From the NCBI GenBank assembly GCA_029232285.1, contig JAOXFI010000033.1, positions 1 through 39,456 of the forward strand: DNA of 39,456 nt, read 5' to 3'. The first letter of the stretch is position 1, and each line of letters opens with the position of its first letter. This document shows positions 4,014 through 33,139 of the stretch, piece after piece. The position numbers and the translations under genes are program-made. This stretch comes from Agmasoma carcini (nom. nud.) (taxonomy: Eukaryota; Microsporidia; Thelohaniidae). The notes below the pieces were generated by a model. That model made no database searches, had not been told where the DNA came from, and saw only the letters and a list, made by a program, of their open reading frames with translations.

Positions 4014-4499
4014 TCAATTATATTCAACCTGTCGCTCCTTCTTCTTATTAATAACTGAAACACCATCAGTGCTTTCTTCAATCTTGTAATGTCTATCAAT
4101 AAGTCTTTTATGTGTTTTAATGATGTTAATATCATTTTCTTTACATTTCTCTTGTCCACTTAATATTCTATTCTTAACAAATGTATCTTCTTGCATAGAC
4201 TTAACTTCATTGATCTTTGGTATTAAATTAGTTACTTTATCAACGATTTCTTGATTTAATGCAGTAATTTCATTCTTTCTCTTTTCAAAATTGAATATTT
4301 TACCATTGTTAAGCATTTTACCTCTAACCAGTCTAGAAATTCTAGTCCATCTAAGCTTTCTAGGATCAAGTCTTCTTTTATATAATCTTATGCATTTAGA
4401 TCTACAGAATCTAAATGTAGTTGAATCAGTTCTTACGTAAGTTGTACCAAAGCCAGGATAAATATTGCCAGAGCACATGTAACATTTTTCTATTCTCAT
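4014..4499 (-). CDS. RLP24: ribosome biogenesis protein RLP24
   Basis: RLP24 is the pre-60S placeholder for ribosomal protein eL24; in yeast it recruits the AAA-ATPase Drg1 and is exchanged for eL24 in the cytoplasm. The 161 residues start with the typical MRI-x-x-C-x-x-C zinc-ribbon half (Cys6, Cys9), then IYPGFGTTYVR, and the second half FRFCRSKC (Cys32, Cys36), then DPRKLRWT. The FEKRKNE segment and the following helical region with FVKNRIL match the RLP24-specific extension and distinguish it from eL24, which has FQFLxxKC and lacks this extension. The minus-strand start is preceded by CCCAAG, a CCC-type microsporidian initiation motif. It is convergent with the 891-residue gene and upstream of it lies an A+T-rich spacer. 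Confidence 0.9.
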   Translation of the reverse strand: MRIEKCYMCSGNIYPGFGTTYVRTDSTTFRFCRSKCIRLYKRRLDPRKLRWTRISRLVRGKMLNNGKIFNFEKRKNEITALNQEIVDKVTNLIPKINEVKSMQEDTFVKNRILSGQEKCKENDINIIKTHKRLIDRHYKIEESTDGVSVINKKKERQVEYN

Positions 4500-4711: not shown

Positions 4712-5191
4712 TTAAAATTCTTTTAATTCATTTAAACTGTCACATAATTTTCCTAAAATAGTCCCTCCATGTAAAATATTCATAACTAATCTAATATCAG
4801 ATGGAAATATTGTTGCTCTCTTAGCATGTCTAGTACATAAAAGTGCAAGCTCAAATAAAGTTACAATCATCTGTTCTAGGCATTCATGCAAAATACTAAC
4901 CACACTCTTTGACATCCTAAGAGGTGTTCCTACTGACACCAATTCAACTAATATTTTTCTTAATATTCTCACAATTGATGCTCTTGCTACAACCAAAATT
5001 GTATTATTTTTTTGGAAGAATTTTACCTCTTTAAGTGCAATACTAGCATTTTTAGTCTTCTTAAGTACTGTTTTACCTTGTTTTATGGCTGGAACCTTCA
5101 CTACTTTACTTTTACCGACTGGCTCAGCTGTTTCTAGACTCTTTTTCTTTCTTAAAGCTATTTTTCTTGCTGTGTGTGCAGATCTAGCCAT
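4712..5191 (-). CDS. divergent histone H3, possibly centromeric (CenH3-like)
   Basis: The 159-residue protein has an H3-type histone fold in its second half. Recognisable blocks are IALKEVKFFQK (alphaN), the alpha1 region ending RILRKI, an alpha2 with SILHECLEQMIVTLFE, then CTRHAKRATIFPSDIRLVMNI, which matches the H3 loop-2/alpha3 signature. The alpha1-loop1 region is about four residues longer than in canonical H3, a trend shared with CENP-A. The tail begins MAR and keeps TARK (Lys9 equivalent), but the Lys4 position is Ala and the Ser10 position is Ile. The rest of the tail is Lys-rich and not alignable. About 15 residues extend past alpha3. Microsporidian H3 is itself divergent, so canonical H3 remains possible. 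The start is supported by a CCCA motif directly before the ATG. Confidence 0.75.
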   Translation of the reverse strand: MARSAHTARKIALRKKKSLETAEPVGKSKVVKVPAIKQGKTVLKKTKNASIALKEVKFFQKNNTILVVARASIVRILRKILVELVSVGTPLRMSKSVVSILHECLEQMIVTLFELALLCTRHAKRATIFPSDIRLVMNILHGGTILGKLCDSLNELKEF

Positions 5192-5511: not shown

Positions 5512-5688
5512 TTAATCTAATAATACACAATCCTCCATATTTGTGTATCCAGGCTTACTTCCATTGACTCCAACACCTTCAAGATGAGAATGTGGTTGTA
5601 TATCAATATTAGAATCAATATTAGTGTAAACCCCAGGTGATGCATAAAGTAAATTTGTAAAGTAATCCTTGAAACTAGAAAAATTCAT
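5512..5688 (-). CDS. small array protein 1, unknown (58 aa)
   Basis: This is the most 3' member of a run of nine short minus-strand genes. The ATG at 5688 is preferred; an upstream TTG in frame would add seven residues. It is the least hydrophobic of the set at the N terminus (MNFSSFKDYFTNLLYA), and the remainder is polar and Gly/Pro-containing with one Cys near the C terminus. There is no recognised family. Existence as a gene rests on its position in the same-strand array and its bounded open frame between minisatellites. Confidence 0.45.
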   Translation of the reverse strand: MNFSSFKDYFTNLLYASPGVYTNIDSNIDIQPHSHLEGVGVNGSKPGYTNMEDCVLLD

Positions 5689-5817
5689 GTTGTTTTTGTT
5701 TATGTTCAATATTTAAATTTTTAATATGAAACAAAATCACAAAATTGTTTTACTTTTGATAAATTTAATATAAAATGAGAATTGAATTTGATGATTTATT
5801 ATAAATATAACATTTTT

Positions 5818-6126
5818 ATATACTAACCTGACTAACTAACTTGACTAACTAACCTGACTAACTAACTTGACTAACTAACCTGACTAACTAACTTGACTAA
5901 CTAACCTGACTAACTAACCTAACTAACTAACCTGACTAACTAACCTGACTAACTAACCTGACTAACTAACCATGACTAACTAACTTGACTAACTAACTTG
6001 ACTAACTAACCTGACTAACTAACCTGACTAACTAACCATGACTAACTAACCTGACTAACTAACCTGACTAACTAACCTGACTAGCTAACATAACTAACTA
6101 ACCTGACTAACTAACATAACTAACTA
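5818..6126. repeat. 13-bp TGACTAACTAACC minisatellite
   Basis: More than 20 copies of the 13-base unit TGACTAACTAAC(C/T) run almost without interruption, with occasional CATGACTAACTAAC variants. It separates the first and second small array genes and ends only about 12 bases from the stop codon of the second. Confidence 0.95.
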
Positions 6127-6137
6127 AAATTACTTTA

Positions 6138-6326
6138 TTAAAAATATTCATCATCATCTATTTCATCTGGAAAAAAATTTAAATTAGGAGAATCATCAAT
6201 ATGATGTCCATCGTACATACTTTCAATGTTATAACTAGGCCATTCTCTTAATCCTGGTTTAGTTGGAGATTCTTCACCTTTATAATCAATATAATTTGCA
6301 TAAATAAAATTAATAAATATTTGCAT
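6138..6326 (-). CDS. small array protein 2, putatively secreted (62 aa)
   Basis: The protein starts MQIFINFIYA, a ten-residue hydrophobic leader with a small residue at a plausible cleavage point, followed by a polar, acidic, Pro-rich body that ends in a DEIDDDEYF-type acidic tail. There are no Cys residues. The family is not recognised. The ATG lies in the TTTTTTATGC context shared by several array members. Secretion is inferred from the leader only; it is much shorter than a normal eukaryotic signal peptide. Confidence 0.5.
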   Translation of the reverse strand: MQIFINFIYANYIDYKGEESPTKPGLREWPSYNIESMYDGHHIDDSPNLNFFPDEIDDDEYF

Positions 6327-6419
6327 AAAAAAATATAAATCAATATATTTATAATATGAAACAATCGTATTAGCTGTAATGTAAATGATAGAAATTTAAT
6401 AAATAAAATAAGTAACGTT

Positions 6420-6595
6420 ATGACTCTCTGACTAATCTTTTACTGTCTGATTAATCTTTTACTATTTAACCATCTGATCATCTGACGTGACTGACCATGT
6501 CTAACCACCACTGACCATGATTGACCTAATCTAACTTAATCTGAGCATGTCTAACCATCACTGATCTGATCTAACCTAACCAATATTAACTAATA
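6420..6595. repeat. degenerate TGAC/CTAACC repeat tract
   Basis: Imperfect units of CTGACTAATCTTTTACTGT type pass into ACCATGTCTAACCACCACTG and CTAATCTAACTTAATCTGA. This resembles a decayed version of the neighbouring TGACTAAC arrays, placed between array genes 2 and 3. Confidence 0.7.
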
Positions 6596-6601
6596 ATTTA
6601 T

Positions 6602-6823
6602 TTAAAATCTAAAATCTCTTACATATGTTGAATTCATCAACTTATATGGATTATAGTCATATATTATATCATTTATATCATTGTTATACCTTCTTAAACG
6701 TTTTATTTCAGCTTCCTTCATCAATTCTTCTCTTTCTAATATTTCACCTCTTTCCAACTCATCCCTAACCAAGTCATACATAAGATTGTAACTATGAATT
6801 TTTAATAAATTCAAAATGAACAT
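6602..6823 (-). CDS. small array protein 3, putatively secreted (73 aa)
   Basis: The leader MFILNLLKIHS is hydrophobic for about nine residues. It is followed by a strongly charged helical stretch (RDELERGEILEREELMKEAEIKR) and then RLRR and a Tyr/Asn-rich C-terminal segment with YNPYK. Array protein 9 has the same order: acidic/charged helix, RLRR, then a Tyr-rich tail with a P-x-YK-like motif. They may therefore be distant paralogues. The family is unknown. The ATG is the first in frame. Confidence 0.5.
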   Translation of the reverse strand: MFILNLLKIHSYNLMYDLVRDELERGEILEREELMKEAEIKRLRRYNNDINDIIYDYNPYKLMNSTYVRDFRF

Positions 6824-6944
6824 TGAATTGTTAGATTATTTGAATTTAAATTTATGTATGAGATATGTATCAGAATTTGATTGATTGGTAGATAAAACTA
6901 TGATCATGATTGATAAAAATTATGAAACTAAATGATGAAAAATT

Positions 6945-7245
6945 AATGCATAAATATTTATGCAAAAATACTATATAATAAAAAATAATATGCATAAATA
7001 TAATAAAAATATTATAAATGGAGACTAGTCATCTCTATAATACAAATACTATGCATAAAAAATACTATGCATAAAAATATTATATACACAATAATCATTT
7101 AATAAAAATATTATACACATAATAATATCATCTCTATAATACTATGCATTAAAAATATTAAATACATAAATAATCAATTCTATAATAATATGCATAAAAA
7201 TATTATACACATAATAATCATTTCTATATTATATTTAATAATTAT
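6945..7245. repeat. TATGCATAAA-containing interspersed repeats
   Basis: The motif (A)TGCATAAA(A/T)ATA recurs about seven times with variable spacers, several of them ACACATAATAATCATCTCTATAATA-like. The same core appears near 4560-4650 and 8700-8890. Read on the minus strand it is TTTATGCAT, which resembles the start context of several array genes. No open frame is seen. Confidence 0.7.
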
Positions 7246-7258
7246 TTAACATAAATAT

Positions 7259-7663
7259 TTATTTTCCTAAATAATGCTCAAATTCCTTTTCAAAATTATT
7301 TTCTGATAAATTTCCTTCTTTTTTACTTAAAACTGGTAATTTAAATCTTCCTTCTTCATCATAATCATCATTAATTGTTTTTGGTTTTTCATCAAATAAA
7401 ATATTTTTGATTTGATTAAAAATACTTTTAATCAGTAAAAAATTCTGATTATTAAAATCATTAATAATTTTCTTTTTCTCATCATCACTTATGTGTCTTG
7501 TACAGTTGCATTGAAGTAAAGGAAGATCAAAGCACTTATCATTTACATTGCCTTTACAATATTCTTTACAACAATTATTTTCTTCTTTACTCATTATTAA
7601 ATTTAAATCATCAACTATGTAAAAATCTGAAGGTATTGAAAATATTTTTAATATAAAATGCAT
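7259..7663 (-). CDS. small array protein 4, Cys-rich, putatively secreted (134 aa)
   Basis: The N terminus MHFILKIFSIPSDF is hydrophobic. Residues about 30-56 hold a cluster of seven Cys with spacing CC-x3-C-x7-C-x8-C-x-C, ending CNCTRH, which suggests a small disulfide-bonded or metal-binding module. The second half is a Lys/Glu/Asn-rich, probably helical region. No family is recognised. The Cys cluster and leader together suggest an extracellular or host-exposed protein; this is inference. The start context is AAATTTATGC. Confidence 0.6.
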   Translation of the reverse strand: MHFILKIFSIPSDFYIVDDLNLIMSKEENNCCKEYCKGNVNDKCFDLPLLQCNCTRHISDDEKKKIINDFNNQNFLLIKSIFNQIKNILFDEKPKTINDDYDEEGRFKLPVLSKKEGNLSENNFEKEFEHYLGK

Positions 7664-7739
7664 AAATTTTATATTTTAGAAATTTTTATATTGAGAAATA
7701 AATTTAAAACATAAGAATTAGAAGTCAGAATTATATGAT

Positions 7740-8030
7740 AGGAAATTAATGCAATTTAATTATATAATTTTTATATAATAATATTTTATATATATGTTTT
7801 TATATATAATTTCTATATAGTGTACTATATATATAATTTCTATATAATATATTTTATATATAATTTCTATATATATAATTTTCTATAATTTCTATATAAT
7901 ATTTTATATATATAATTTTCTATATAATATTTTATATATTATTTTACATATAATTTTCTATAATTTCTATATAATATTTTATATATATAATTTCTATAAT
8001 ATTTATATATTAAATATATATAATTTTATT
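7740..8030. repeat. TATATAATTTCTATATAATATT low-complexity tract
   Basis: Almost pure A+T made of TATATAATTT(T)CTATATAATATTTTA units of about 30-40 bases, repeated roughly seven times. It lies between array genes 4 and 5 and has no coding potential. Confidence 0.9.
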
Positions 8031-8032
8031 TA

Positions 8033-8191
8033 TTAAAATAATATCTGTGATCTATTAGGTAAATCACAATAACATATTCTAGTGTTATTATTAGGTGTGG
8101 TTGTAAATATTGGACTAGGATTAGCTGTAAGAAAAGTTTCTATATTTGAAATACAACAATCATTGCTTTTGATTAAATTAAGAAATAGCAT
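8033..8191 (-). CDS. small array protein 5, putatively secreted (52 aa)
   Basis: A 53-codon frame from ATG at 8191 to TAA. The leader MLFLNLIKS resembles those of array proteins 3 and 8 (MFILNLLKI, MLFNFLIKT). The body is Thr/Asn/Pro-rich with four Cys: a CC pair near residue 12 and a CYC motif near residue 44, giving an even number for two disulfides. The start context is TTTTTATGC. At 52 residues it falls under usual gene-calling limits; its support comes from the leader similarity and array position. Confidence 0.5.
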   Translation of the reverse strand: MLFLNLIKSNDCCISNIETFLTANPSPIFTTTPNNNTRICYCDLPNRSQILF

Positions 8192-8389
8192 AAAAATTAT
8201 AAAGTTAATTTTTTTATAATGAAATGTTTTAAATTGATTTAGTATTGATCAAATTTAAAATTATGTTTCAATATTTAACTTATGTTGGAATCTAATTCAT
8301 TCATATTATTTGTTCTGTAACCAGTGGGTATAATATTATAGAAATCATACCTGTCAATATATCAAACATCTCTTAATACAAACAATAAT

Positions 8390-8539
8390 TTATTCACATA
8401 AACTTTTTAAATCTTCAACTTCACATCTCCACCTTCTAAAATTTTTTATTGGATCATTTTGTTCATTACGATAATTATGTTGTCTGTATCTAAAGCTTGT
8501 ACTATATTTATAACATAAAATATTTATTAAATGTAACAT
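8390..8539 (-). CDS. small array protein 6, putatively secreted (49 aa)
   Basis: A 50-codon frame from ATG at 8539 to TAA. The leader is MLHLINILC, followed by a basic/aromatic segment (SFRYRQHNYR) and a C-terminal part with RRWRCEVEDL. It contains three Cys. An alternative ATG two bases upstream in another frame closes after 12 codons and is rejected. No family is recognised; support is leader similarity, strand and position in the array. Confidence 0.4.
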   Translation of the reverse strand: MLHLINILCYKYSTSFRYRQHNYRNEQNDPIKNFRRWRCEVEDLKSLCE

Positions 8540-8624
8540 GCATAATAAAATTTATATTTTTTTATGCAATCAGTTTGACTTTAGAAACTATTTATAATTG
8601 TTTTAAAATTTAATATAATAAGTT

Positions 8625-8885
8625 ATAGAAATACATAATAATTTGTATCTTTTACTGAGAAATACATGATAATTTATATATTTTACTGATAAATACATGA
8701 TAATTTGTATATTTTAATGCATTTGCATAAATATAATAAGTTAGATTCTTATATATAAAAAATAAATTATATAAATACATGATAATTTATATATTTTAAT
8801 GCATTTGCATAAATAATAATTTGTATCTTTTAATGATAAATACATGATAATTTATATATTTTAATGCATTTGCATAAATAATATT
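8625..8885. repeat. AATACATGATAATTTATATATTTTAATGCATTTGCATAAAT repeats
   Basis: About five imperfect copies of a unit containing AAATACATGATAATTTGTATATTTTA, several extended by ATGCATTTGCATAAATA. No open frame is seen. It separates array genes 6 and 7. Confidence 0.8.
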
Positions 8886-8933
8886 TTATATATTATATTA
8901 CATCAAAATTATTCAATTTATATTAAATTTAAT

Positions 8934-9074
8934 TCACATATTTGGTACTATCATCTTATCTTTGTCATATTTTTCCACATTATCAATCTTAGATCCAGGA
9001 TACAACAAATTATTAGGTGTTACTTCAACATCATCACTTTCTTCTGCACGCATAAATATTAACATCCAAAGCAT
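8934..9074 (-). CDS. small array protein 7, putatively secreted (46 aa)
   Basis: A 47-codon frame from ATG at 9074 to TGA. The leader MLWMLIFMRA ends in Ala and is followed at once by a very acidic EESDD segment, the sharpest leader/mature boundary in the array. The rest is polar with Asn/Asp/Lys and no Cys. The start context is ATTTTTATGC. It starts only 38 bases from the stop of array gene 8, the closest spacing in the array. Confidence 0.5.
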   Translation of the reverse strand: MLWMLIFMRAEESDDVEVTPNNLLYPGSKIDNVEKYDKDKMIVPNM

Positions 9075-9112
9075 AAAAATCTAAAACAAAAATATTTAAA
9101 TCTGTTTCAAAT

Positions 9113-9523
9113 TTAATTGTTTAAGAGTTCCCATCTATCAGGATGAACCTCAATCACTTGATCATGTTTCGTTGATGGAAACATTGACACTCTTCTTTCA
9201 CCATCTTCATTTTTATAAACTTTTTCAACCGTTTCTTTGATTGTTGTGTAAAATGCTCCATTTTTTTTAGCTTTCAAAGGTTTTGAATTTAATCTTACTT
9301 GCTTTGAATTAATAACATTAAATTTATCATCATCAGTAATTTTGTTGTTATTTAAAATATTTTCATAATCCTTAAATAAAAATTTATGCTCTTTTTCATG
9401 TTGAGTTTGTTCTTGATTTTGAATATCCATTTTATAGCAATCCATGCATGAATTGTTGCAATCATCATTTAAATATTCTAAAATGCTTTCAGCTTGTGTT
9501 TTTATAAGAAAATTAAATAACAT
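9113..9523 (-). CDS. small array protein 8, putatively secreted (136 aa)
   Basis: The leader MLFNFLIKTQA is followed by an acidic helix and three Cys in NDDCNNSCMDCYK. The remaining 100 residues are hydrophilic, Lys/Asn/Glu-rich, ending in a segment with HPDRWELLNN. No membrane segment follows the leader. It is the longest member of the array and has a clear single frame. Function unknown; export is inferred from the leader. Confidence 0.6.
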   Translation of the reverse strand: MLFNFLIKTQAESILEYLNDDCNNSCMDCYKMDIQNQEQTQHEKEHKFLFKDYENILNNNKITDDDKFNVINSKQVRLNSKPLKAKKNGAFYTTIKETVEKVYKNEDGERRVSMFPSTKHDQVIEVHPDRWELLNN

Positions 9524-9654
9524 GATTTTTTTTCAGATGTTTTTTTAAAAATGAAACTAAAGGTGTTTTGAAAGTGATTGAATATGAAACAAAGTTTGTT
9601 ATTCTAAAATTGTAAGTTTTAATAATGGTTAATATAATATATTTTTTATATAAT

Positions 9655-9815
9655 AGGTTAGTTAGTCTACTATTATATGTTAGACCACTGTTATAATTCC
9701 AATATTGTTAGACCATGGTTATCAGTCCAATATTGTTAGTCTAGTCCAGTTTAGTCTATTTTAGTTCAGTTTAGTTCAGTTTAGTCCAGTCTAGTCCAGT
9801 CTAGTCTAATATATT
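9655..9815. repeat. TTAGTCTAGTCCAGT-type repeat
   Basis: Short units such as GTTAGACCA, CAATATTGTTAGTC and AGTCCAGTTTAGTC/TAGTTCAG lie just 3' of array gene 9. On the minus strand this reads as ACTAAACTGGACTAGACTAAC, related to the CTAAC-type arrays elsewhere but in opposite orientation. Confidence 0.8.
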
Positions 9816-9844
9816 TTAATAAATTTTTTTTTCAATTTTTTTAT

Positions 9845-10063
9845 TTAATAAAGCCTCCTAGGTTTGTACAAAGGTGGTTCATTCGCATACAATTCCCTGT
9901 ATATTCTTGCTCTTCTCAAACGATCAATATTCCTATCTCTAGCATCCATATACGTATCTAAAGGTTCCATCTCAGAATAAGGATTAGATAAATCTAAATT
10001 TACTAATTCACCACGTGAACTTTTTACAATAACACATCTTAAAATACTAAGAAATGAAAACAT
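9845..10063 (-). CDS. small array protein 9, putatively secreted (72 aa)
   Basis: This is the first (5'-most) gene of the array. The leader is MFSFLSILRCVIV, followed by a body with acidic and Arg-rich stretches: DARDRNIDRLRRARIYREL, then a Pro/Tyr-rich end (YKPRRLY). The RLRR and Tyr/Pro tail recall array protein 3. There is no family match that I recognise. The ATG is the first in frame after A+T-rich sequence. Confidence 0.5.
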   Translation of the reverse strand: MFSFLSILRCVIVKSSRGELVNLDLSNPYSEMEPLDTYMDARDRNIDRLRRARIYRELYANEPPLYKPRRLY

Positions 10064-10339
10064 AATTTAATTTTTTTATTTATTTTTATAGTAATTTTGT
10101 AAAAAATGGATCAATAAAAAAAATTATAAAATATTTAAAATGTGTTATATTTACAATAAAAATAGTAAAATTATGTATTTTATGTTATGATAAAGATGTA
10201 ACAATGATATTATTGTTATAACTGTCATTCTATCATGTTTAATTGATTTAGATTAGAAAATAATTAGTTAAAAATAATATATTTTAAGTATGAAATTTTA
10301 ATCATAATTTATTGAAATAAAATAAATGTTAATAATACC

Positions 10340-10693: not shown

Positions 10694-10969
10694 ATGACAT
10701 CCTCTAAGAAAATAAAATTTCTTGAATATCTAAAAGAGAATGACTATTATTACAATGATGGCATTAAATATGGTTTAGATTACTTAGTTTACACAGACCA
10801 TCCATCTAAAGTACATTCTAAATATGGTGTAGTGATCTATAATTCAAATTTAACTTATTCTCAACTAATTTTGTATCAAAGAGTTTGTAATTCAAACAAT
10901 AAGACATTTTTATTGGCTGATGTTAAGGATGGTGATATTTATTTTTGGTCAATAAAAAGATTTATTTGA
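10694..10969 (+). CDS. tRNA-splicing endonuclease catalytic subunit (SEN2/SEN34 type), minimal
   Basis: The 91-residue protein corresponds to just the C-terminal catalytic domain of tRNA-intron endonucleases, which cut pre-tRNA introns at the two splice sites. DGIKYGLDYLVY gives the conserved Tyr33, KVHSKYGVVI gives His41, and RVCNSNNKTFLLADV gives Lys70, so the Tyr-His-Lys triad is complete. A C-terminal beta segment (DIYFWSIKRF) fits the family. There is no N-terminal domain, so it is shorter than yeast Sen34 or Sen2; whether it is the Sen2 or Sen34 orthologue cannot be decided by eye. The ATG follows an AAATTTTTTTATA box. It is convergent with the membrane protein across a minisatellite. 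Confidence 0.8.
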   Translation: MTSSKKIKFLEYLKENDYYYNDGIKYGLDYLVYTDHPSKVHSKYGVVIYNSNLTYSQLILYQRVCNSNNKTFLLADVKDGDIYFWSIKRFI

Positions 10970-18767: not shown

Positions 18768-21083
18768 ATGAACTCCAGGATGACTACAGTTGAGAGTAAC
18801 CTTTTTAAGTTCACAGGCAAGTCTGGAATCCTACACCACTATCAGGTAACCTTCAATCCTGAAATATTAAAGAAAAACATGTTCTCCAAGTTTATGGAGG
18901 TCGCTTCCTCAGAACAAAACAACTTTAATGTCGCTTTTTGCTATGATGGTTTTAACATGCTAGTTAGCTATGAAAAGTTCGAAAACGTGTTGCTTAAGTT
19001 CCCAATGAGAAATGAAGAGCTCCAAATATCAATTGAATATAAAAACAGCTACGATATGTCAGACAAAAAACAAGATCCTACAATATTGATCCAACTCGTT
19101 GATACCATCCTTAAATTCTACCAAAAACAACTTTTTTGGGTTGACAGGAAAAAAATGATATCTAAAGATAACAATCCTTTTTCACTCGGTCCTGGCTTAG
19201 AATTACAAATCGGATTGACTACTACCTTCAAGGTAACCCGTGCAAGCTACTACTTGAATATTGATCCTTGTTTTGTACCTTTCTACAAAGAAAAGGAGGT
19301 CGTCGAATTAGTTAAGGAACTGGCCAAAGATAACAACATTTATGATATTTTTAAATTACCAACAACCTCACCATTTTTTGAAAAGGTTTCATCTTTTATT
19401 ACAAACTTGAGAATCGAAACAGTTCACAGAGAAAAGAACTGCAGCTTTAAAGCTATCGGTCTCGAAATGAGCACAGCCGATGAAATCTTCTTTACGGTTA
19501 AGGATGATGAAAAGGTCAGTGTAGCTGATTACTTTGCCAAAGTTTATGGTCCTTTGAAGTATCCAAGCCTTCCACTTATTAAGGTGATGAAGAAGAAAGT
19601 CCTTTTACATATTCCTATGGAAGTCACTAAGATTTGTGGTATGCAGAAATATATGAAGAAGTTAAATGAGGAGCAGACTAGTAAGATGATGACTGCTGCT
19701 GGAAAACCACCCTCGGAAAGATTTGATATGATCATGTCTAAGACTAAACAACTAAAAGCGTTGTCTAATCCTAATCTAGCTAGGTTTGATTTTACTTTTG
19801 ATGGTAAATTTGAAAACTTGAATGCCTTTGAATTGTCTTCACCTGTCGTTCTTTTTGCTGATAGGCAAACCAAGAGACCAGAAAAAGGTAAATTTAATCT
19901 TATCAGCGTTAAAGCCATAAAAGGTAATGATATTAATGATTGGACTGTTTTTACATTCAGAAATGATGATTATAACACTGTTTCTAGGCCTGGTTTCTTT
20001 GATACCTTTTTATTAACTGGACAGAGGTATGGTATGAATTTCAACCCAAATCCAAAGATTGTCAATGTCAATTCGATTGAAGAGTATAAGACAGCTGAGA
20101 AGAGTGAATTTAACATGATTGTCCTTAAAGTTAAGAATTCTATATTCTATGAAGAAATTAAGGCTCTAAGTGAGACTATGGCAGGTGTTTATACCCAGTG
20201 TATATGTAACGCAAATCTCGGTAAGCTTAATAAGCCTGCTTTCTGTTCAAATGTTCTTTTAAAGATAAATGCTAAATTGGGTGGAACTAACTTCGCTCTA
20301 GCTGAATATCCTAAATGTATTTCATCTGGTGATACTATGATTATGGGTATAGACGTATCTCATCCTGCTGTTGGGTCTCATGAGAATGCACCTACTATTG
20401 TTTCAGTGGTGGCTACGGTGGATAAATATTTCACAAAGTACAGGACCGAACTTGCTGTTCAAGAGCGTAAGGAAGAGATAGTTAGCGATTTGGCTTCGAT
20501 CACTACAAATATGTGCCTTGACTTCTTTTTAAAGATGGGTCAGAAGAAACCTAGTAAGATTATTGTGTTTAGGGATGGAGTAAATGAGAGTTTATTCTCT
20601 ACTATAAGTGAAGAGGAAGTTGCTAAGATTAGAGAAGGTTGTAACAAGCTTAATCAAGATGGTGATTTTAATCCTAAGATTACTTACATTGTAGCTCAGA
20701 AGAAGCAGTCAGTTAGATTCATGCAAAGAGGATTTAATGTTGCGCCAGGTACGGTTGTTGATTCAATAGGTCATCCTACTTTAGATGATTTTTATATGTG
20801 CTCACATGATGCAATCAAGGGTACTTTGAAGCCTTGCAGATATGTTAAGACAATTGATGAAAATAATTTTACTTCTCAAGAGGTATATGAGATCTGCTAT
20901 TCTTTGTGCTTCCTCTATTCAAGGGCAACTAAGTCTGTATCGTTTGTTACTCCTGTTTATTATGCCAAGCTTGCTTCTGCACGTGGTAAGGCTTATCTTG
21001 AAGAGTCTGATGATGGAAAGTCTTTTGAATTGAGACCTGTTCACTCTAAGTTTGAAGATATTAATTCTTTGTTCTTTATCTGA
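18768..21083 (+). CDS. AGO: Argonaute protein, predicted slicer-deficient
   Basis: A full-length 771-residue eukaryotic Argonaute, the guide-RNA-binding effector of RNA silencing. The N domain and linker occupy about 1-200. PAZ lies at about 205-330 (GLEMSTADE, SVADYFAKVYG, LKYPSLPLI, IPMEVTKI). The MID domain has an intact 5'-phosphate pocket: Tyr461, Lys465, Gln477, Lys499 and Lys503. PIWI runs from about 524. The catalytic tetrad is Asp529 (MGIDVSHP), Glu570 (KEEIVSDL) and Asp603 (FRDGVNE), but the fourth position, normally His in YYAHL, is Lys734 in YYAKL. Human AGO1 has Arg there and is a poor slicer. A second ATG at codon 5 is also possible as start. Codons are richer in G/C than in neighbouring genes, especially in the first 900 bases. 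No Dicer or RNA-dependent RNA polymerase is in the window. Confidence 0.95.
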   Translation: MNSRMTTVESNLFKFTGKSGILHHYQVTFNPEILKKNMFSKFMEVASSEQNNFNVAFCYDGFNMLVSYEKFENVLLKFPMRNEELQISIEYKNSYDMSDKKQDPTILIQLVDTILKFYQKQLFWVDRKKMISKDNNPFSLGPGLELQIGLTTTFKVTRASYYLNIDPCFVPFYKEKEVVELVKELAKDNNIYDIFKLPTTSPFFEKVSSFITNLRIETVHREKNCSFKAIGLEMSTADEIFFTVKDDEKVSVADYFAKVYGPLKYPSLPLIKVMKKKVLLHIPMEVTKICGMQKYMKKLNEEQTSKMMTAAGKPPSERFDMIMSKTKQLKALSNPNLARFDFTFDGKFENLNAFELSSPVVLFADRQTKRPEKGKFNLISVKAIKGNDINDWTVFTFRNDDYNTVSRPGFFDTFLLTGQRYGMNFNPNPKIVNVNSIEEYKTAEKSEFNMIVLKVKNSIFYEEIKALSETMAGVYTQCICNANLGKLNKPAFCSNVLLKINAKLGGTNFALAEYPKCISSGDTMIMGIDVSHPAVGSHENAPTIVSVVATVDKYFTKYRTELAVQERKEEIVSDLASITTNMCLDFFLKMGQKKPSKIIVFRDGVNESLFSTISEEEVAKIREGCNKLNQDGDFNPKITYIVAQKKQSVRFMQRGFNVAPGTVVDSIGHPTLDDFYMCSHDAIKGTLKPCRYVKTIDENNFTSQEVYEICYSLCFLYSRATKSVSFVTPVYYAKLASARGKAYLEESDDGKSFELRPVHSKFEDINSLFFI

Positions 21084-21289: not shown

Positions 21290-21740
21290 TGGAAGGTATT
21301 AATAGAAACCGTCTAGCTAATTACAAGGATGTAGAAACATTTCTATAAAAGGGTAAGCCTAGACACTCTAAAAGACTTTTGAAAACATGTTTAATTGAAT
21401 TAACAAAAGCGAGGGGTGTATGGTCGGTGTGAAGCAACAAGATTTATTGTAAGATTGCTGATTTTGTACACGCGTGTTTTGTATGGTCGGTGTGAAGCAA
21501 CAAGATTTATTGTAAGATTGCTGATTTTGTACACGCGTGTTTTTTTCAAGCCTGTAGAAGCACGTGGCTTAAATAATTTATTTTTTACCAAAGCACAATA
21601 AGTGTATGATCAGCATTCCTTCGCTATATATCTTTTCTTTATTTATTGTTTGATTTTATGAATTTTTATTTTCTAGCTTGATCGATATTTAAGATTATTT
21701 TTAGAAAACGTGAATATAATCAGAAAAGTTTCCAATCGAA
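21290..21740. mobile_element. dispersed element copy A (possible solo LTR or SINE-like)
   Basis: The last 140 bases (ACCAAAGCACAATAAGTGTA to ATTTAAGATTATTTTTAGAAA) align with the ends of copies B (25.4 kb) and C (29.4 kb): AAAGCAC...AAGTGTATG, TTTGATTTTAT...TTTT, CTAG.TTGA...TATTTAAGATT.TTTGTAGAAA. The first half is less similar and carries a 63-base duplication. No coding frame. Confidence 0.5.
21418..21543. repeat. 63-bp perfect tandem duplication with palindrome
   Basis: Two identical copies of a 63-base unit (21418-21480 and 21481-21543) that begins GTATGGTCGGTGTGAAGCAA and contains the perfect palindrome ACACGCGTGT. It is GC-richer than its surroundings. Open frames on both strands through it are accidental. 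Confidence 0.95.
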
Positions 21741-22390: not shown

Positions 22391-22915
22391 ATGTTTCTAC
22401 TAAACGCTGTATCAGCTGTTAATATAATTAGTTATAGCAGAAATGGTGATAAAAATTACCTTGCCATGGATGATACTAAAACCACAGATAATTTTTTTTT
22501 ATCTAGTCAACTTGAAAAGGCAGTCTCTGTAACTGCTCTTGAGAAAGGTAAAGATATTCAAGACTTACAAGTTCAATTTGGCACTAATACTATGAAGTTT
22601 GTTGATAATAATAAAATACAAATGACCAAAGTAGCAACTGATTCTAATGTTGAGAAAGATGAAAAGACGATTGTTAATGTGTTATTAACACACGATAGTG
22701 GTGAGTTTATAATGAAACATGGAGATCATTGTGTAAATGTTGGTAACGCCAGCAAACTTGTTCTTGGTAGTTGTGATGATCAAGAGATATTCAGATTTAA
22801 GTTTTTAGAAGATCCTATTGCAAAGGATATTAAAGAACAAGTCAAAGCAAATGGCAGTTTTGTTCCTACAAACCCAAATGAATTTAATCCAAAGAATGGT
22901 GAACATATTTATTAA
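22391..22915 (+). CDS. secreted beta-trefoil (ricin-B-type) lectin-like protein 1
   Basis: A 174-residue protein starting at ATG 22391; upstream in-frame codons lack an ATG. The leader MFLLNAVSA ends in a good Ala-x-Ala-like cleavage site after only nine residues. The body fits a degenerate ricin-B/beta-trefoil module: VNIISYSRNGDKNYLAM as first strand pair, and a last repeat with HCVNVG, Cys after 13 residues (LGSC), then EIFRFKF. The usual Q-x-W motif is reduced to F-x-F. There is no catalytic toxin chain. Small ricin-B-type proteins are a known expanded secreted group in microsporidia, but sugar binding is untested. An AAATTTTTTATATAAAAAAA box precedes the start by about 25 bases. Confidence 0.65.
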   Translation: MFLLNAVSAVNIISYSRNGDKNYLAMDDTKTTDNFFLSSQLEKAVSVTALEKGKDIQDLQVQFGTNTMKFVDNNKIQMTKVATDSNVEKDEKTIVNVLLTHDSGEFIMKHGDHCVNVGNASKLVLGSCDDQEIFRFKFLEDPIAKDIKEQVKANGSFVPTNPNEFNPKNGEHIY

Positions 22916-23283: not shown

Positions 23284-23736
23284 ATGTATTTTGTTAATTT
23301 AATTCAAGCTTTCAACATTAGAATATATGATTCTAATCAATACATAACACTTAAAGATAAAAGCATAGGCATTTCTAATCAATTTGACAAGGCCAATTTT
23401 ACAAGCATCTTTGATGGCTATTCAGGTCAGCTAAAAGTGAAAAACTTAGAAATTGTTGCTCATAATAATTCGTTAGAGCTTAAAAAATCAAATGAAAACA
23501 ATACAAAGTTTAAATTAACACCAGAAGGTAACTTTTTAATATTCACCAATGGTAAATGTTGGATTATTGATCGCAATACAAAAACTGTATCTCTTGATGG
23601 GTGCAGTAAAAGATCAACACGCTTTACACTTGAGAACGATTATATGTTTAGTGAATCATATAAGATTGATTTAAGTCCTAAAACTAACTATTATACTGAT
23701 TTAAGATTATTTGAACCAATCTATGAAAGAAAATAA
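23284..23736 (+). CDS. secreted beta-trefoil (ricin-B-type) lectin-like protein 2
   Basis: A 150-residue protein. The leader MYFVNLIQA is nine residues and is followed directly by FNIRIYDSNQYITL, a typical first trefoil strand pair. A late repeat has KCWIIDRNTKTVSLDGC followed by TRFTL, giving the Cys-x14-Cys pair seen at the same place in the other three lectin-like proteins. It is one compact trefoil domain with a short polar tail. A TATAAAG and an AAATTTTTTTT run precede the ATG. Same strand and same order as protein 1, 368 bases downstream, suggesting tandem duplication and divergence. Confidence 0.65.
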   Translation: MYFVNLIQAFNIRIYDSNQYITLKDKSIGISNQFDKANFTSIFDGYSGQLKVKNLEIVAHNNSLELKKSNENNTKFKLTPEGNFLIFTNGKCWIIDRNTKTVSLDGCSKRSTRFTLENDYMFSESYKIDLSPKTNYYTDLRLFEPIYERK

Positions 23737-24284: not shown

Positions 24285-24887
24285 TTATAATGAAAAAACA
24301 CTGAACTTTTCTAATACAAAGTTGGTCAAATCTTCTTCTACTTCAGGTAATCTTTTCTTAAATGGAAGTAACATTTTATCAAATTCAGAATTTGAAGTGT
24401 CTCTTTCAGCTCCACCAGCTAAAGGATCTAAATCAGCATTTGAACTAATACCAGTTCCAAATTTAAAGGCTTCGTGTGATTTTACAATATCAGAATCAGT
24501 CTTGATAAGGTCGAAATGTGTAGCATCAGAGTTACAGTCAACACCCAACATCTCAGATCTATCATCAGAACCAACATTTAAACATAAATTGGTGGAGTTA
24601 TGGAGTATGCTGAATGATGCATCTTCTGGATTAAGAAGAATCATGAAATCATAATTTTTGTTATTATTTGTGCTTACTTTGGCCTTCTTGGACTGTAAAA
24701 ATAAATATTCGTTATTATCAGTTAAAATTAATAGATTTTGTACTTTACTTGCACTGCTTTGTATTTTAAAGTTAGAGGCAGCCTCTAAAGTATCAGTGCC
24801 TATGAAAGAGCCGTTTTCGGTGGTTACATATTTTTTAGTATCTCTATTATATAAGTTGAATGTAAATACAGTTGAAAAGAAAAACAT
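24285..24887 (-). CDS. secreted beta-trefoil (ricin-B-type) lectin-like protein 3
   Basis: A 200-residue protein on the opposite strand. The ATG at 24887 is used; an upstream TTG would add 22 residues without improving the leader. MFFFSTVFT is again nine residues, followed by FNLYNRDTKKYVTTENG. Three trefoil repeats can be traced: SFIGTDTLEAASNFKI, then a SKVQNLLILTDNNEYLFL block, then LCLNVG with Cys after 15 residues (GVDC) and THFDLI. A Ser/Asp/Glu-rich tail of about 60 residues follows. Convergent with protein 2. Family known as secreted in microsporidia; carbohydrate binding inferred only. Confidence 0.7.
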   Translation of the reverse strand: MFFFSTVFTFNLYNRDTKKYVTTENGSFIGTDTLEAASNFKIQSSASKVQNLLILTDNNEYLFLQSKKAKVSTNNNKNYDFMILLNPEDASFSILHNSTNLCLNVGSDDRSEMLGVDCNSDATHFDLIKTDSDIVKSHEAFKFGTGISSNADLDPLAGGAERDTSNSEFDKMLLPFKKRLPEVEEDLTNFVLEKFSVFSL

Positions 24888-25399: not shown

Positions 25400-25730
25400 C
25401 ATGAAATACACATGGTAAAGAGTGATAACATTGTAAACAAAGTCTAATTGAACTATAACAGGTTTTTAGGAGATACACGTAACCTTGTTAACTCTGGGAA
25501 ATTGGTTTTCGGTTGATAAACAGACCCCCCCTTCTTAAAGATATAAGTTAGGATGTACATTATAACACTAAGCTACAATATATTATGATGTTTGTAAAGT
25601 TTTATTTTACTAAAGCACGTAAGTGTATGTTTATTTATCTTTTTGATTTTATAATTTTTACTTACCTTTATAGGTTAACTCATATTTAAGATTCTTTGTA
25701 GAAATAAAAGGAAACGTTTCCGATTGATTT
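25400..25730. mobile_element. dispersed element copy B
   Basis: It aligns along its length with copy C: ACATGG..AGAGTGATAA, TTGAACTATAACAG, TACACGTAACCTTGTTAACT, CTGGGAAATTGGTTT, AAAGATATAA, GCTACAATATATTATG, AAAGCACGTAAGTGTATG, ATAGGTTAACTCATATTTAAG, TTTGTAGAAA. No coding frame. Solo LTR, SINE-like element or other non-autonomous repeat are all possible. Confidence 0.6.
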
Positions 25731-28380: not shown

Positions 28381-29316
28381 ATGCTCTTAATAAATACCAT
28401 CAAAACGTTTTATCTGAAGTTAAGTGCCGAAGATAAATTCTTAGGTAGTAGTGGAAGATACATTACAATAGTTGAACCAAATAATGCTTTGAACTTCCAC
28501 ATTGAACAGGAAGACAGGAATGATGGAGTAGGATACTTAATAACAGATCACCGATACTTAGGACAATATGGTTTTCGTTTAAGAAAAACACGTCTATATA
28601 AAAGAAAAAGAAAATATGGAAGCAGACAACTTTATTCAATGGTGATATATAAAACAGGAGAAGTAATAATTAAAAATAATTCAAAATGTTTAACAAGAAC
28701 AAGCAGAGGTGTTGAAAGAAGAAATTGTGACAATCCATTGATTTTTCAAGTTTGTGATGATCGTAGGTGTTATCATAGACGTCATTGGACACATGAGCAC
28801 AATCCATACAGATTCTACATTGGTCCTAATGTTACATCAATGAAACAAACTTGTAGAGGCAAGGATTGTAATTCAAGACACTCAAGACACTCAAGACACT
28901 CAAGAAGGTCAAGAGGTTCAATAGGGTCAAGAGGATCAAGAGGGTCAAATGGCTCAGATGGCTCAAGTGATTCAAATGGGTCAAGTGATTCAAATGATTC
29001 AGATTCTAATAATGATAATTCCTCATCAAGTTCTAATAGTGATTATTCAAGAGGAAATAATAACAAACCATGGAATGGATATTGGGATAATACACCAGGA
29101 TGGAAAAATCCTAAAAATAGCAATAATGGTGGCCATTATGGTTGGAACAATAACACTTCGGGATGGAATAGCAAGAATTCTGATGGTGGTAACTCAAATA
29201 ATGAAGGTTCTAAATATGGATTTAATATACCTAATAATGATGATGACTCATATATTGAAATCTCAGATAACAATCCTTTATCAAGTGTTCTTACCAATAG
29301 CATTTTTGGATGTTAA
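28381..29316 (+). CDS. secreted beta-trefoil lectin-like protein 4 with long low-complexity tail
   Basis: A 311-residue protein. MLLINTIKTF is the leader, then YLKLSAEDKFLGSSGRYITI begins a trefoil domain that ends at about residue 135 with KCLTRTSRGVERRNC (Cys-x12-Cys) and LIFQV. The domain is unusually basic, with RKTRLYKRKRKYG. A tail of about 150 residues follows: three to four RHS repeats, then Arg-Gly-Ser, Asp-Ser-Asn and finally Asn/Gly/Trp-rich segments (GWKNPKN, GHYGWNNN). This has the look of an extracellular matrix or wall-associated tail, which is inference. It is about 3.5 kb from the other three lectin-like genes. Confidence 0.65.
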   Translation: MLLINTIKTFYLKLSAEDKFLGSSGRYITIVEPNNALNFHIEQEDRNDGVGYLITDHRYLGQYGFRLRKTRLYKRKRKYGSRQLYSMVIYKTGEVIIKNNSKCLTRTSRGVERRNCDNPLIFQVCDDRRCYHRRHWTHEHNPYRFYIGPNVTSMKQTCRGKDCNSRHSRHSRHSRRSRGSIGSRGSRGSNGSDGSSDSNGSSDSNDSDSNNDNSSSSSNSDYSRGNNNKPWNGYWDNTPGWKNPKNSNNGGHYGWNNNTSGWNSKNSDGGNSNNEGSKYGFNIPNNDDDSYIEISDNNPLSSVLTNSIFGC

Positions 29317-29404: not shown

Positions 29405-29790
29405 AATCCACATGGGGTAGAGTGATAAAGATGGTAAAAATGGCTGATTTGACTATAACAGATCAATATTAGGGCTAAAACAGGGCTTTGAAGAATACGG
29501 ATAACCTTGTTCACTTTGGGAAACTAGTTTATGATAATAGAATAGACACATCAGTATCCCTAAGATATAAACCTTGGTGTGCGTAATAGCATTAAACTTA
29601 GCTACAATATAGTATGGCTTCTTTAAAGTCTTTTATCAAACATGATGTGTGTATGATTGCTATCCCACGCTCTCCATCCCTTCTACATTCCACTTTGACT
29701 ATTGTTGTTTGATTTTAGGTATTTTATTTGCTATTTTGTTCTCTAGGTTGACACTTAAGATTATTTGTAGAAACGAATAATAAGAGTTGA
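29405..29790. mobile_element. dispersed element copy C
   Basis: The longest copy. It shares ordered blocks with copy B from ACATGGGGTAGAGTGATAA to ACTTAAGATTATTTGTAGAAA, and its 3' half with copy A. It has a GC-richer insert CCCACGCTCTCCATCCCTTC near 29665. It starts about 90 bases after the stop of lectin-like gene 4. Confidence 0.6.
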
Positions 29791-31051: not shown

Positions 31052-33139
31052 TTAAATAAAATCTTTATTTTTGTGGATGGTGTGGATACATTTTCTATAC
31101 CAGTAGTCTCTGTTCTGCTCGTGATCAAATGCTAATACTACACCATTCCCTTCATATCTAAAACATATTCTAAAGGGGTGTGACCTTTCTTCGAAGTCAT
31201 ATTTGTCGAAGTTTAGAGCTGCATGCAAATTCCAATTACCCTTGGCATATTTTGAACCATCATACTTGTGATATAGAAGAACACCACTTTTTAATAAAAC
31301 AAAGTACTTTTGGTGCCAAAAACATGAGAAAATTCTTCTCTTCTTTAAAATATGACCTTCAGCTATGATTTCATCCTTTTCTCTATATTTTAGAACATCT
31401 GATTCAGATTGAAGTCTTGTTAATACAGGAGGCACATATTGTGGCTCTTCAATTGTGAAAGTTTCATTGTTTGATTCATCAAATACAACTTTCTTTTCGT
31501 TGTTACTTTTTTGTGATTCACTTTCATTTATTGAAATATCCTTCATTTTATTAGTAACGATATCATCCTCTTTCCTTTTTGATGAAATATCAGGGGATTC
31601 ACTAATCGAGGGTTTATTTTCAACATGATGTATTTCATTTTTATGATGTTGGTTTTCGGCATGCTGTTTATCGTCTGCTTGAGTACCAACCTCAGCATGA
31701 TGGCCCTCTTCTTCGTGATGATGGTTTTCAGCATGCTTCTCATCCTCTGCTTGAGTACCAACCATAACATGATGACCCTCTTCTTCGTGATGATGGTTTT
31801 CAGCATGCTTCTCATCCTCTGCTTGAGTACCAACCATAACATGATGACTCTCTTCTTCGTGATGTTGCTTATCTTCTATATGCTTCTCATCAATTTGATG
31901 ATTGTCTTTTTTATTTTCTATTATACACTCATCAATAGATTTTTCATTTTCTTTATCTCTAGTAACTTCAGTCTCTGGTTCAAGTTTATGAGGGTTCTTA
32001 ACTGCATTTATATGCTTTTTATCTTCATTTGTAGGTTCTTCATCATCAATTGATCCATTGCTGCTCTCACTTAAACTTATTTTATATGTTTCCTCTTCTT
32101 TTCCTAGTTCTTCTATGTGATCTTCAATAATATCATTATCTTGATCTTTTATAAAATCAGCCTCTTCTTTTGTATCTTTAGCATCAACCTTAGCTATATT
32201 AAGGCTCGATTGCTCTAAACTCGATCCTTTTACTTTCTTAGGCTTTTTATATTCGAAATTTTTATTTTTCTTCTTATTTGACGAAACAACTACTGTTTTG
32301 TTTTTCTTTGTTTTAATAACCCTAGCAGAGCTATTGACATTAGCTGAAATGAAACTTGGTCTTTTATTATTATTTGCTGGTTGCTTTTCTATAAAAGGAT
32401 CCAATTCATCAGCACCTAAGACTTGCGGTTCAGGACTATCGGCTATGTTTTTATTTGTTATAGTTGATGTTGCATCAGAAGAAATTGGTGTAAGACTTTC
32501 AGTATTACTTGATACGTTATCTGATTTGACTTTCTCTCTCTTCTCTCTAACTGATCTCCGACTTGATAGTATTTCAGAATCTGTTCTTGATAAGGAATAC
32601 ATGCTAGTTCTGGCATCTCTACCAAGTTTAACATCTTCATCCTTGTTTACTTGTTCAGTTTCGACAGGCTTAACAGTTTCTTTATTGTTTTCTGCTTCAT
32701 CTTTAGACATTACTCCTTTATTTTTTTGAGAATTTAAATATTTTTCTGATTGATCAATAACGTTGATAGGGGGAATTTCAGGCAATTTGTCAGAATCAGT
32801 TTGATATAAATCAATGGAATCAGTTTTTGGTTGGTTAGGAATGTTAATAAGGGGCATACCAAATGATGTATCTAATCTATAATTGTCTTCTGATTGGTCA
32901 GGAGAGTTGATGAGAGGTGTTCCTAGTAATAAGTTTGATTTAGATGAATTTGAGTTTTTGTAAAGATTTTTTTTGATTCTTCTACTGGTTAAAGTATTTT
33001 TAAATATTTTTTTAGAAGATTTAGTCTCTATAGGAAGACTATGTACTTTTATGTGAATATTTTCAGCGCTTCCTTCATAAATATTGGTTTTGTTTCCATC
33101 TTTGTCAACTTTATATATTTTTTTAATCTTTCTTGACAT
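31052..33139 (-). CDS. PH-domain protein with disordered, His/Glu-repeat region
   Basis: A 695-residue protein. Residues about 590-692 form a pleckstrin-homology domain: EGHILKKRR, FWHQKYFVLLKSGVLLYHKY, FRICFR, and the signature C-terminal Trp in RDYWYRKC. PH domains bind phosphoinositides or protein partners and target proteins to membranes. The first 580 residues are low-complexity, Ser/Lys/Glu/Asp-rich and probably disordered, with basic patches such as KTKKNKTVVV. Residues about 425-500 contain three to four copies of a 24-residue His/Glu/Ala repeat (HHEEEGHHVMVGTQAEDEKH). It is reminiscent of yeast polarity or cortical PH proteins, but orthology cannot be stated. An A+T-rich TATATAAAATT precedes the ATG. 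Confidence 0.8.
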   Translation of the reverse strand: MSRKIKKIYKVDKDGNKTNIYEGSAENIHIKVHSLPIETKSSKKIFKNTLTSRRIKKNLYKNSNSSKSNLLLGTPLINSPDQSEDNYRLDTSFGMPLINIPNQPKTDSIDLYQTDSDKLPEIPPINVIDQSEKYLNSQKNKGVMSKDEAENNKETVKPVETEQVNKDEDVKLGRDARTSMYSLSRTDSEILSSRRSVREKREKVKSDNVSSNTESLTPISSDATSTITNKNIADSPEPQVLGADELDPFIEKQPANNNKRPSFISANVNSSARVIKTKKNKTVVVSSNKKKNKNFEYKKPKKVKGSSLEQSSLNIAKVDAKDTKEEADFIKDQDNDIIEDHIEELGKEEETYKISLSESSNGSIDDEEPTNEDKKHINAVKNPHKLEPETEVTRDKENEKSIDECIIENKKDNHQIDEKHIEDKQHHEEESHHVMVGTQAEDEKHAENHHHEEEGHHVMVGTQAEDEKHAENHHHEEEGHHAEVGTQADDKQHAENQHHKNEIHHVENKPSISESPDISSKRKEDDIVTNKMKDISINESESQKSNNEKKVVFDESNNETFTIEEPQYVPPVLTRLQSESDVLKYREKDEIIAEGHILKKRRIFSCFWHQKYFVLLKSGVLLYHKYDGSKYAKGNWNLHAALNFDKYDFEERSHPFRICFRYEGNGVVLAFDHEQNRDYWYRKCIHTIHKNKDFI
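31640..31875 (-). repeat. 72-bp in-frame coding repeat in PH-domain gene
   Basis: Three near-identical 72-base units (phase points TTCTTCG at 31709, 31781, 31853) plus a degenerate flanking unit encode the 24-residue His/Glu repeats. Units are highly similar, so recent expansion is likely. Confidence 0.9.

Follow-up and report, generated by a model that had tools for sequence, protein, structure and literature searches.

What kind of genes are the nine short open reading frames (ORFs) that lie in tandem on the minus strand between positions 5512 and 10063 of a contig from the microsporidian Agmasoma carcini? The window analysed here is this entire contig (C54, 39,456 bases), in a genome of 4.26 Mb in 69 contigs, and coordinates below are window positions unless another contig or locus is named. 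An earlier note had taken the array as what a rapidly evolving family of host-exposed effectors would look like. The analysis described below favours, with reasonable confidence, a different answer, in which the cluster comprises nine small orphan genes, eight of them encoding putatively secreted proteins with ultra-short signal peptides, that may be co-regulated through their promoters. Small secreted orphan genes of a microsporidian are known in kind; the promoter is the new element here, and it is the shortness of the leader and the promoter accompanying it that are unusual.

All nine ORFs listed in the earlier note were found, encoding 58, 62, 73, 134, 52, 49, 46, 136 and 72 amino acid residues (genes 1 to 9), and they look like real genes. 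The 4.55 kb between 5512 and 10063 contains nine minus-strand ORFs of at least 46 residues, 682 residues in total, where 300 dinucleotide shuffles of the same stretch gave 0.76 on average and never more than three. A coding score based on codon usage was trained on 31 other ORFs, with 55 overlapping 'shadow' ORFs as the reference; seven of the nine small-gene bodies scored higher than every shadow ORF, genes 5 (8033–8191) and 6 (8390–8539) being weak. When stops in the other frames were ignored, the own frame scored best for eight bodies, with gene 6 failing, and in a variant penalising such stops it scored best for all nine. The frames might instead have arisen by chance, or be remnants of decayed genes, in repeat DNA rich in AT, as the surroundings (140 kb sampled beyond the window) are AT-rich and gene-sparse with many small ORFs, and as the weak scores of genes 5 and 6 would also allow. 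This is very improbable in view of the excess over the shuffles, the own-frame result and the TATA-like box found in register before eight of the nine genes (see below).

Eight of the products open, as had been claimed, with a hydrophobic stretch of 8–11 residues. Gene 1 (5512–5688), without a clear leader, encodes an acidic body with a coding score above all 55 shadow ORFs. The leaders of the others are MQIFINFIYA in gene 2 (6138–6326, acidic body), MFILNLLKI in gene 3 (6602–6823), MHFILKIFS in gene 4 (7259–7663), MLFLNLIKS in gene 5, MLHLINIL in gene 6, MLWMLIFMRA in gene 7 (8934–9074, acidic body), MLFNFLIKT in gene 8 (9113–9523) and MFSFLSIL in gene 9 (9845–10063). Hydropathy drops from leader to body by at least 1.9 in seven of the nine genes; the control frequencies for such a drop were about 6% in other large ORFs (150 residues or more; n = 35), 7% in shadow ORFs (n = 55), 11% in other small ORFs (n = 81) and 4% at internal Met positions (n = 201). 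A leader rule, written by the analyst after viewing the genes, passed seven of the nine orphans, three of four comparison genes in the window and none of its 26 other ORFs, together with 3 of 99 ORFs outside it. Residue 9 or 10, read by inspection, is Ala, Ser, Thr or Cys in seven of the eight leaders, MFILNLLKI being the exception. Similar leaders stand on unrelated proteins, namely a subtilisin (MLIFNIISA) and a chitin deacetylase (MLLFQFVLA), while that of the endoplasmic reticulum (ER) HSP70 is partly charged. In a paralogous pair on contig C13 with the leaders MFYFLKFIQC and MFYLLKFIQC, a TATA box is located at –28 of that Met in both copies, one of which has no earlier in-frame Met. Export machinery is encoded in the genome in the form of a signal-peptidase-like protein and two SRP54-type GTPases. 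MLFLNLIKS, MLFNFLIKT and the comparison leader MLLINTIKT come near the motif [IL]IK[ASC], which ends the signal peptides of 12–24 residues in RBL proteins of Nosema bombycis (PMC9224602).

The subtilisin allowed leader length to be compared across species. Its best relatives in the protein database include those of Tubulinosema, Vittaforma, Anncaliia, Pseudoloma, Encephalitozoon and Vairimorpha, the best being 45% identical. In the alignment, 11 residues stand ahead of the conserved prodomain Tyr in this genome and 11–18 in six other named microsporidia (Pseudoloma 11, with Gln replacing Tyr; Tubulinosema and Anncaliia 13; Vairimorpha necatrix 15; Vittaforma 17; E. romaleae 18), with 24 and 18 in two Nematocida entries. 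The corresponding stretch spans 40–46 residues in named Coemansia, Pochonia and Ophiocordyceps, and at least 31 in the remaining named fungal rows. Exceptions to the latter are three apparently truncated rows with 25 and three with 7 or fewer, which are either fragmentary or misaligned; a row under the name Arctopsyche begins inside the domain. Throughout the named microsporidia of the alignment, then, the predicted signal peptides are short, with this genome at the low end. The leaders of the cluster are best read as ultra-short signal peptides, and secretion of the eight products is likely, which is the part of the first interpretation that held; their destination, an effector role and control by the transcription factor Ste12 (see below) are what we infer.

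The second feature common to the cluster lies upstream of the start codons. A TATA-like hexamer, from a set picked after the upstream regions had been viewed, starts between –29 and –25 in eight of the nine small genes and in six of eight other leader genes, compared to 10 of the 35 other ORFs of at least 150 residues and 7 of the 81 other small ORFs. In 3000 shuffles the number of genes with such a box never came to eight, and three other registers gave zero, zero and one of nine. On the minus strand, TATAAA is located at –27 of gene 2 (6348–6353), gene 4 (7685–7690), gene 5 (8213–8218) and gene 9 (10085–10090), TTTAAA at –29 of gene 1 (5712–5717), –27 of gene 3 (6845–6850) and –26 of gene 7 (9095–9100), and a further TATA-like box at –26 of gene 8 (9544–9549); gene 6 has none in this register. 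The dinucleotide CC, taken as a relaxed version of the CCC motif that Peyretaillade et al. described in microsporidia (PMC2803860), lay 14 nt or less from the ATG in none of the nine small genes, none of the eight other leader genes and 22 of the 35 other large ORFs. Both signals occur together in the genes for SRP54, the signal-peptidase-like protein, cytosolic HSP70 and ER HSP70; it is therefore TATA plus the absence of CC, not TATA alone, that marks the cluster. The common layout hints at a shared switch for part of the secreted repertoire.

A third upstream element is the heptamer TGAAACA, the yeast Ste12 site (pheromone response element). It precedes five of the nine orphans, as TGAAACA/TGTTTCA at 5727–5733 (gene 1), 6357–6363 (gene 2), 8264–8270 (gene 5), 9103–9109 (gene 7) and 9585–9591 (gene 8), all on the minus strand, and 3 of 35 other large ORFs. 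It was the best of 210 composition-matched 7-mers in the orphans and came first when 7-mers were ranked on the eight other leader genes (seven of eight, compared to 3 of 35 controls); the p-values of this ranking are exploratory, as TTTCA/GAAACA strings had been spotted by eye beforehand. This set of eight omitted five further short-leader genes (chitin deacetylase, ER HSP70, L034:8, L033:7690 and L024:1014), none of which carries TGAAACA, and with these added the element is found in 7 of 13 non-orphan short-leader genes and 3 of the remaining 32. Two short-leader paralogues at L024 (1014–1967 and 7832–8557) have a TATA box at –28 and a common CTGTCA at –42 replacing TGAAACA; CTGTCA is perhaps a second distal element.

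The genome gave one STE-domain match (E 1.7e-53), covering positions 2–109 of 109 and located in a 327-residue frame. This putative Ste12 gene has no CC; it is preceded by TGAAACA at –63 and by a TATA box at –30, which misses the register of –29 to –25 by a single base. An Encephalitozoon cuniculi STE12 factor appears in an expressed sequence tag table of Edhazardia aedis (PMC2474625), and the Ste12 regulon of a nematode-trapping fungus includes effector-like genes (PMC10662756); a search of the open literature by title gave nothing on a microsporidian Ste12 regulon and nothing relevant on TGAAACA in microsporidia. It is tempting, if rather speculative, to propose that the fungal Ste12/TGAAACA circuit, which serves mating and invasive growth, was kept by microsporidia to switch lineage-specific secreted proteins. 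The genes with 8–11-residue leaders would then be driven by TGAAACA and a TATA box around –27, with transcription starting at the ATG; Ste12 would regulate itself and most other genes would use the CC promoter.

In the explanation that we propose for the cluster, each small gene would have its own promoter, with transcription beginning at the ATG or within a few bases of it. The 8–11-residue leader would be a complete signal peptide, recognised by the signal recognition particle and Sec61, and signal peptidase would cut after a small residue at about position 9 or 10. What remains, a mature body of some 36–127 residues that is polar, often acidic and sometimes Cys-containing, would enter the secretory pathway and most likely arrive at the parasite surface or in the host cell. 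The likeness of the leaders would stem from a common export route, not from common descent, and a layout of TATA without CC at the start, often with TGAAACA, which is common to several other secreted genes including that for subtilisin, suggests co-regulation.

Several observations weigh against this explanation. As to the proteins, a leader is missing from gene 1, the coding weaknesses described above concern genes 5 and 6, the leader rule fails two of the nine orphans, one of the four comparison genes and ER HSP70, and a gene for a protein disulphide isomerase-like protein opens with a longer stretch that a 9-residue leader from the first Met does not fit. As to the promoters, the TATA-like hexamers were chosen after inspection, the eight other leader genes include relatives and so are not independent, and TATA and CC are not mutually exclusive in the 35 large ORFs (both in 6, CC only in 16, TATA only in 6, neither in 7; p 0.29, counted in the register –30 to –25). 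The short-leader chitin deacetylase and ER HSP70 genes carry the CC motif, and promoter type and secretion therefore coincide incompletely. The exact TGAAACA is missing from four of the nine orphans, many of its sites in sampled loci, 81 of which lie outside the window, stand before ordinary frames or before no frame at all, and the genome-wide pattern TGTTTCAN{2,16}TATAWAAA, searched in one orientation (TGTTTCA..TATA), was not enriched, with 20 matches compared to 23 for a reversed control.

Descent from a common ancestor would be a different explanation, in which the nine genes form a rapidly evolving effector family whose leader was kept while the bodies diverged under host pressure. The tandem one-strand layout and the alike leaders speak for it, as do the lack of a database relative for gene 8, the one orphan searched, and the enrichment of Nematocida host-exposed proteins in clade-specific proteins with targeting signals (PMC5423893). 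We consider it unlikely. The bodies, some with Cys (six in gene 4, four in gene 5), compare as unrelated, as the earlier note had said, and the nine were not found to be homologous members of one family, as in a large host-exposed (LGF-type) gene family; no second copy of gene 4 or gene 8, the only two searched as proteins, was detected in the genome; and similar leaders open the subtilisin and the chitin deacetylase. For these reasons the leader is not the mark of an effector family, and this part of the first interpretation was not borne out. A Pfam scan of the nine proteins gave two matches, both below the cut-off, and the protein database yielded no relative for gene 8 or for the comparison gene at 22391–22915.

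The products may also be small structural components of the spore wall or polar tube and not host-acting factors, for which short, acidic, Cys-containing bodies could be suitable. Proteins without a known function, of which some have signal peptides, came down with polar tube protein 3 of Vairimorpha necatrix in pulldowns (PMC10931468). No sequence-specific tie to known wall or tube proteins was found and the Pfam scan gave nothing above the cut-off, and we hold such a role to be possible though doubtful, some way behind that of secreted, co-regulated orphans. A ricin B or beta-trefoil domain had no Pfam match, at sequence level, in the nine orphans and the four comparison genes. The predicted structures of gene 4 (mean predicted local distance difference test, pLDDT, 53.9) and of the comparison gene at 23284–23736 (pLDDT 38.9, from a four-row alignment) were unusable; a lectin fold is not claimed, as both models are too poor for fold comparison.

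The genes were also said to alternate with different minisatellites, which applies to most of the cluster. Tandem Repeats Finder reported an array in seven of the eight gaps, two of them with a copy number of merely 2.0–2.2, and none in the 38-bp gap at 9075–9112. Comparable arrays separate ordinary genes throughout the window, and a 13-bp array from the cluster recurs on many contigs in a DNA search of the genome, and is therefore not special to the cluster. Besides the region itself, the matches of the cluster in this search were confined to repeat-rich parts of the query.

The four comparison genes lie further along the window. Those at 22391–22915 (plus strand, 174 residues, MFLLNAVSA) and 23284–23736 (plus strand, 150 residues, MYFVNLIQA) are both related to that at 24285–24887 (minus strand, 200 residues, MFFFSTVFT); kinship of these three with the gene at 28381–29316 (plus strand, 311 residues, MLLINTIKT) was not supported. 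All four have a TATA box and all except that at 23284–23736 have TGAAACA. A repeat of about 75 bp occurs beside them at 21638–21707, 25630–25704 and 29702–29773, the first copy being 78% and 74% identical to the others, as if a segment had been duplicated along with the genes.

Elsewhere in the window, an Argonaute-like gene (18768–21083) encodes Piwi and PAZ domains, by which an RNA interference component is predicted to be present. The protein encoded at 4014–4499 has an L24e domain, and among solved structures it is matched best by the biogenesis factor RLP24, not by ribosomal eL24. A histone-fold protein of 159 residues (4712–5191) is by eye H3-like with a long N-terminal part, a 91-residue frame (10694–10969) consists nearly entirely of the catalytic domain of a tRNA intron endonuclease, and a PH-domain protein (31052–33139) contains His/Glu-rich units encoded by a 72-bp tandem repeat.

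Gene finders have length limits, and signal-peptide predictors are trained mostly on longer peptides. Such tools are likely to overlook genes of this kind, and microsporidian secretomes may be undercounted. A promoter layout tied to secreted orphans would provide a homology-independent annotation signal for candidate host-facing proteins, and the Ste12 link, if true, would open the regulation of the secreted repertoire to experiment in organisms whose genetic manipulation is difficult.

Among known systems, the host-exposed proteins of Nematocida (Reinke et al. 2017, PMC5423893) are likewise orphans for which secretion signals are predicted, many of them lacking any known domain. Many of those belong to large paralogous families of at least 10 members, whereas the bodies here show no relation to one another, and genes 4 and 8, the two searched, are each present once. 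The Nosema bombycis RBL proteins (PMC9224602) share with the cluster the motif near several leaders and the clustering of genes, and differ in their signal peptides of 12–24 residues, compared to leaders of 8–11 here, where no lectin model matched. Small coding sequences of Encephalitozoon (Belkorchia et al. 2015, PMC4589312), at 25–84 residues, were similarly missed by annotation and are supported there by rapid amplification of cDNA ends (RACE-PCR). Most of them are conserved among microsporidia and only one has a predicted signal peptide, whereas here a leader opens eight of the nine products, and gene 8, the one searched, gave no relative. The fungal Ste12/pheromone response element system (regulon in PMC10662756) resembles the situation here in the occurrence of TGAAACA before putatively secreted genes, a Ste12 homologue and the element at its own gene; in the present genome, where control by Ste12 is putative, the exact element precedes five of the nine genes and the genome-wide pattern is not enriched. 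As in the CCC/AAATTT promoters of microsporidia (Peyretaillade et al. 2009, PMC2803860), the signals here sit tight against the ATG, and CC is found in 22 of the 35 other ORFs; unlike these promoters, those of the cluster have no C motif but a TATA-like box near –27, which TGAAACA often accompanies.

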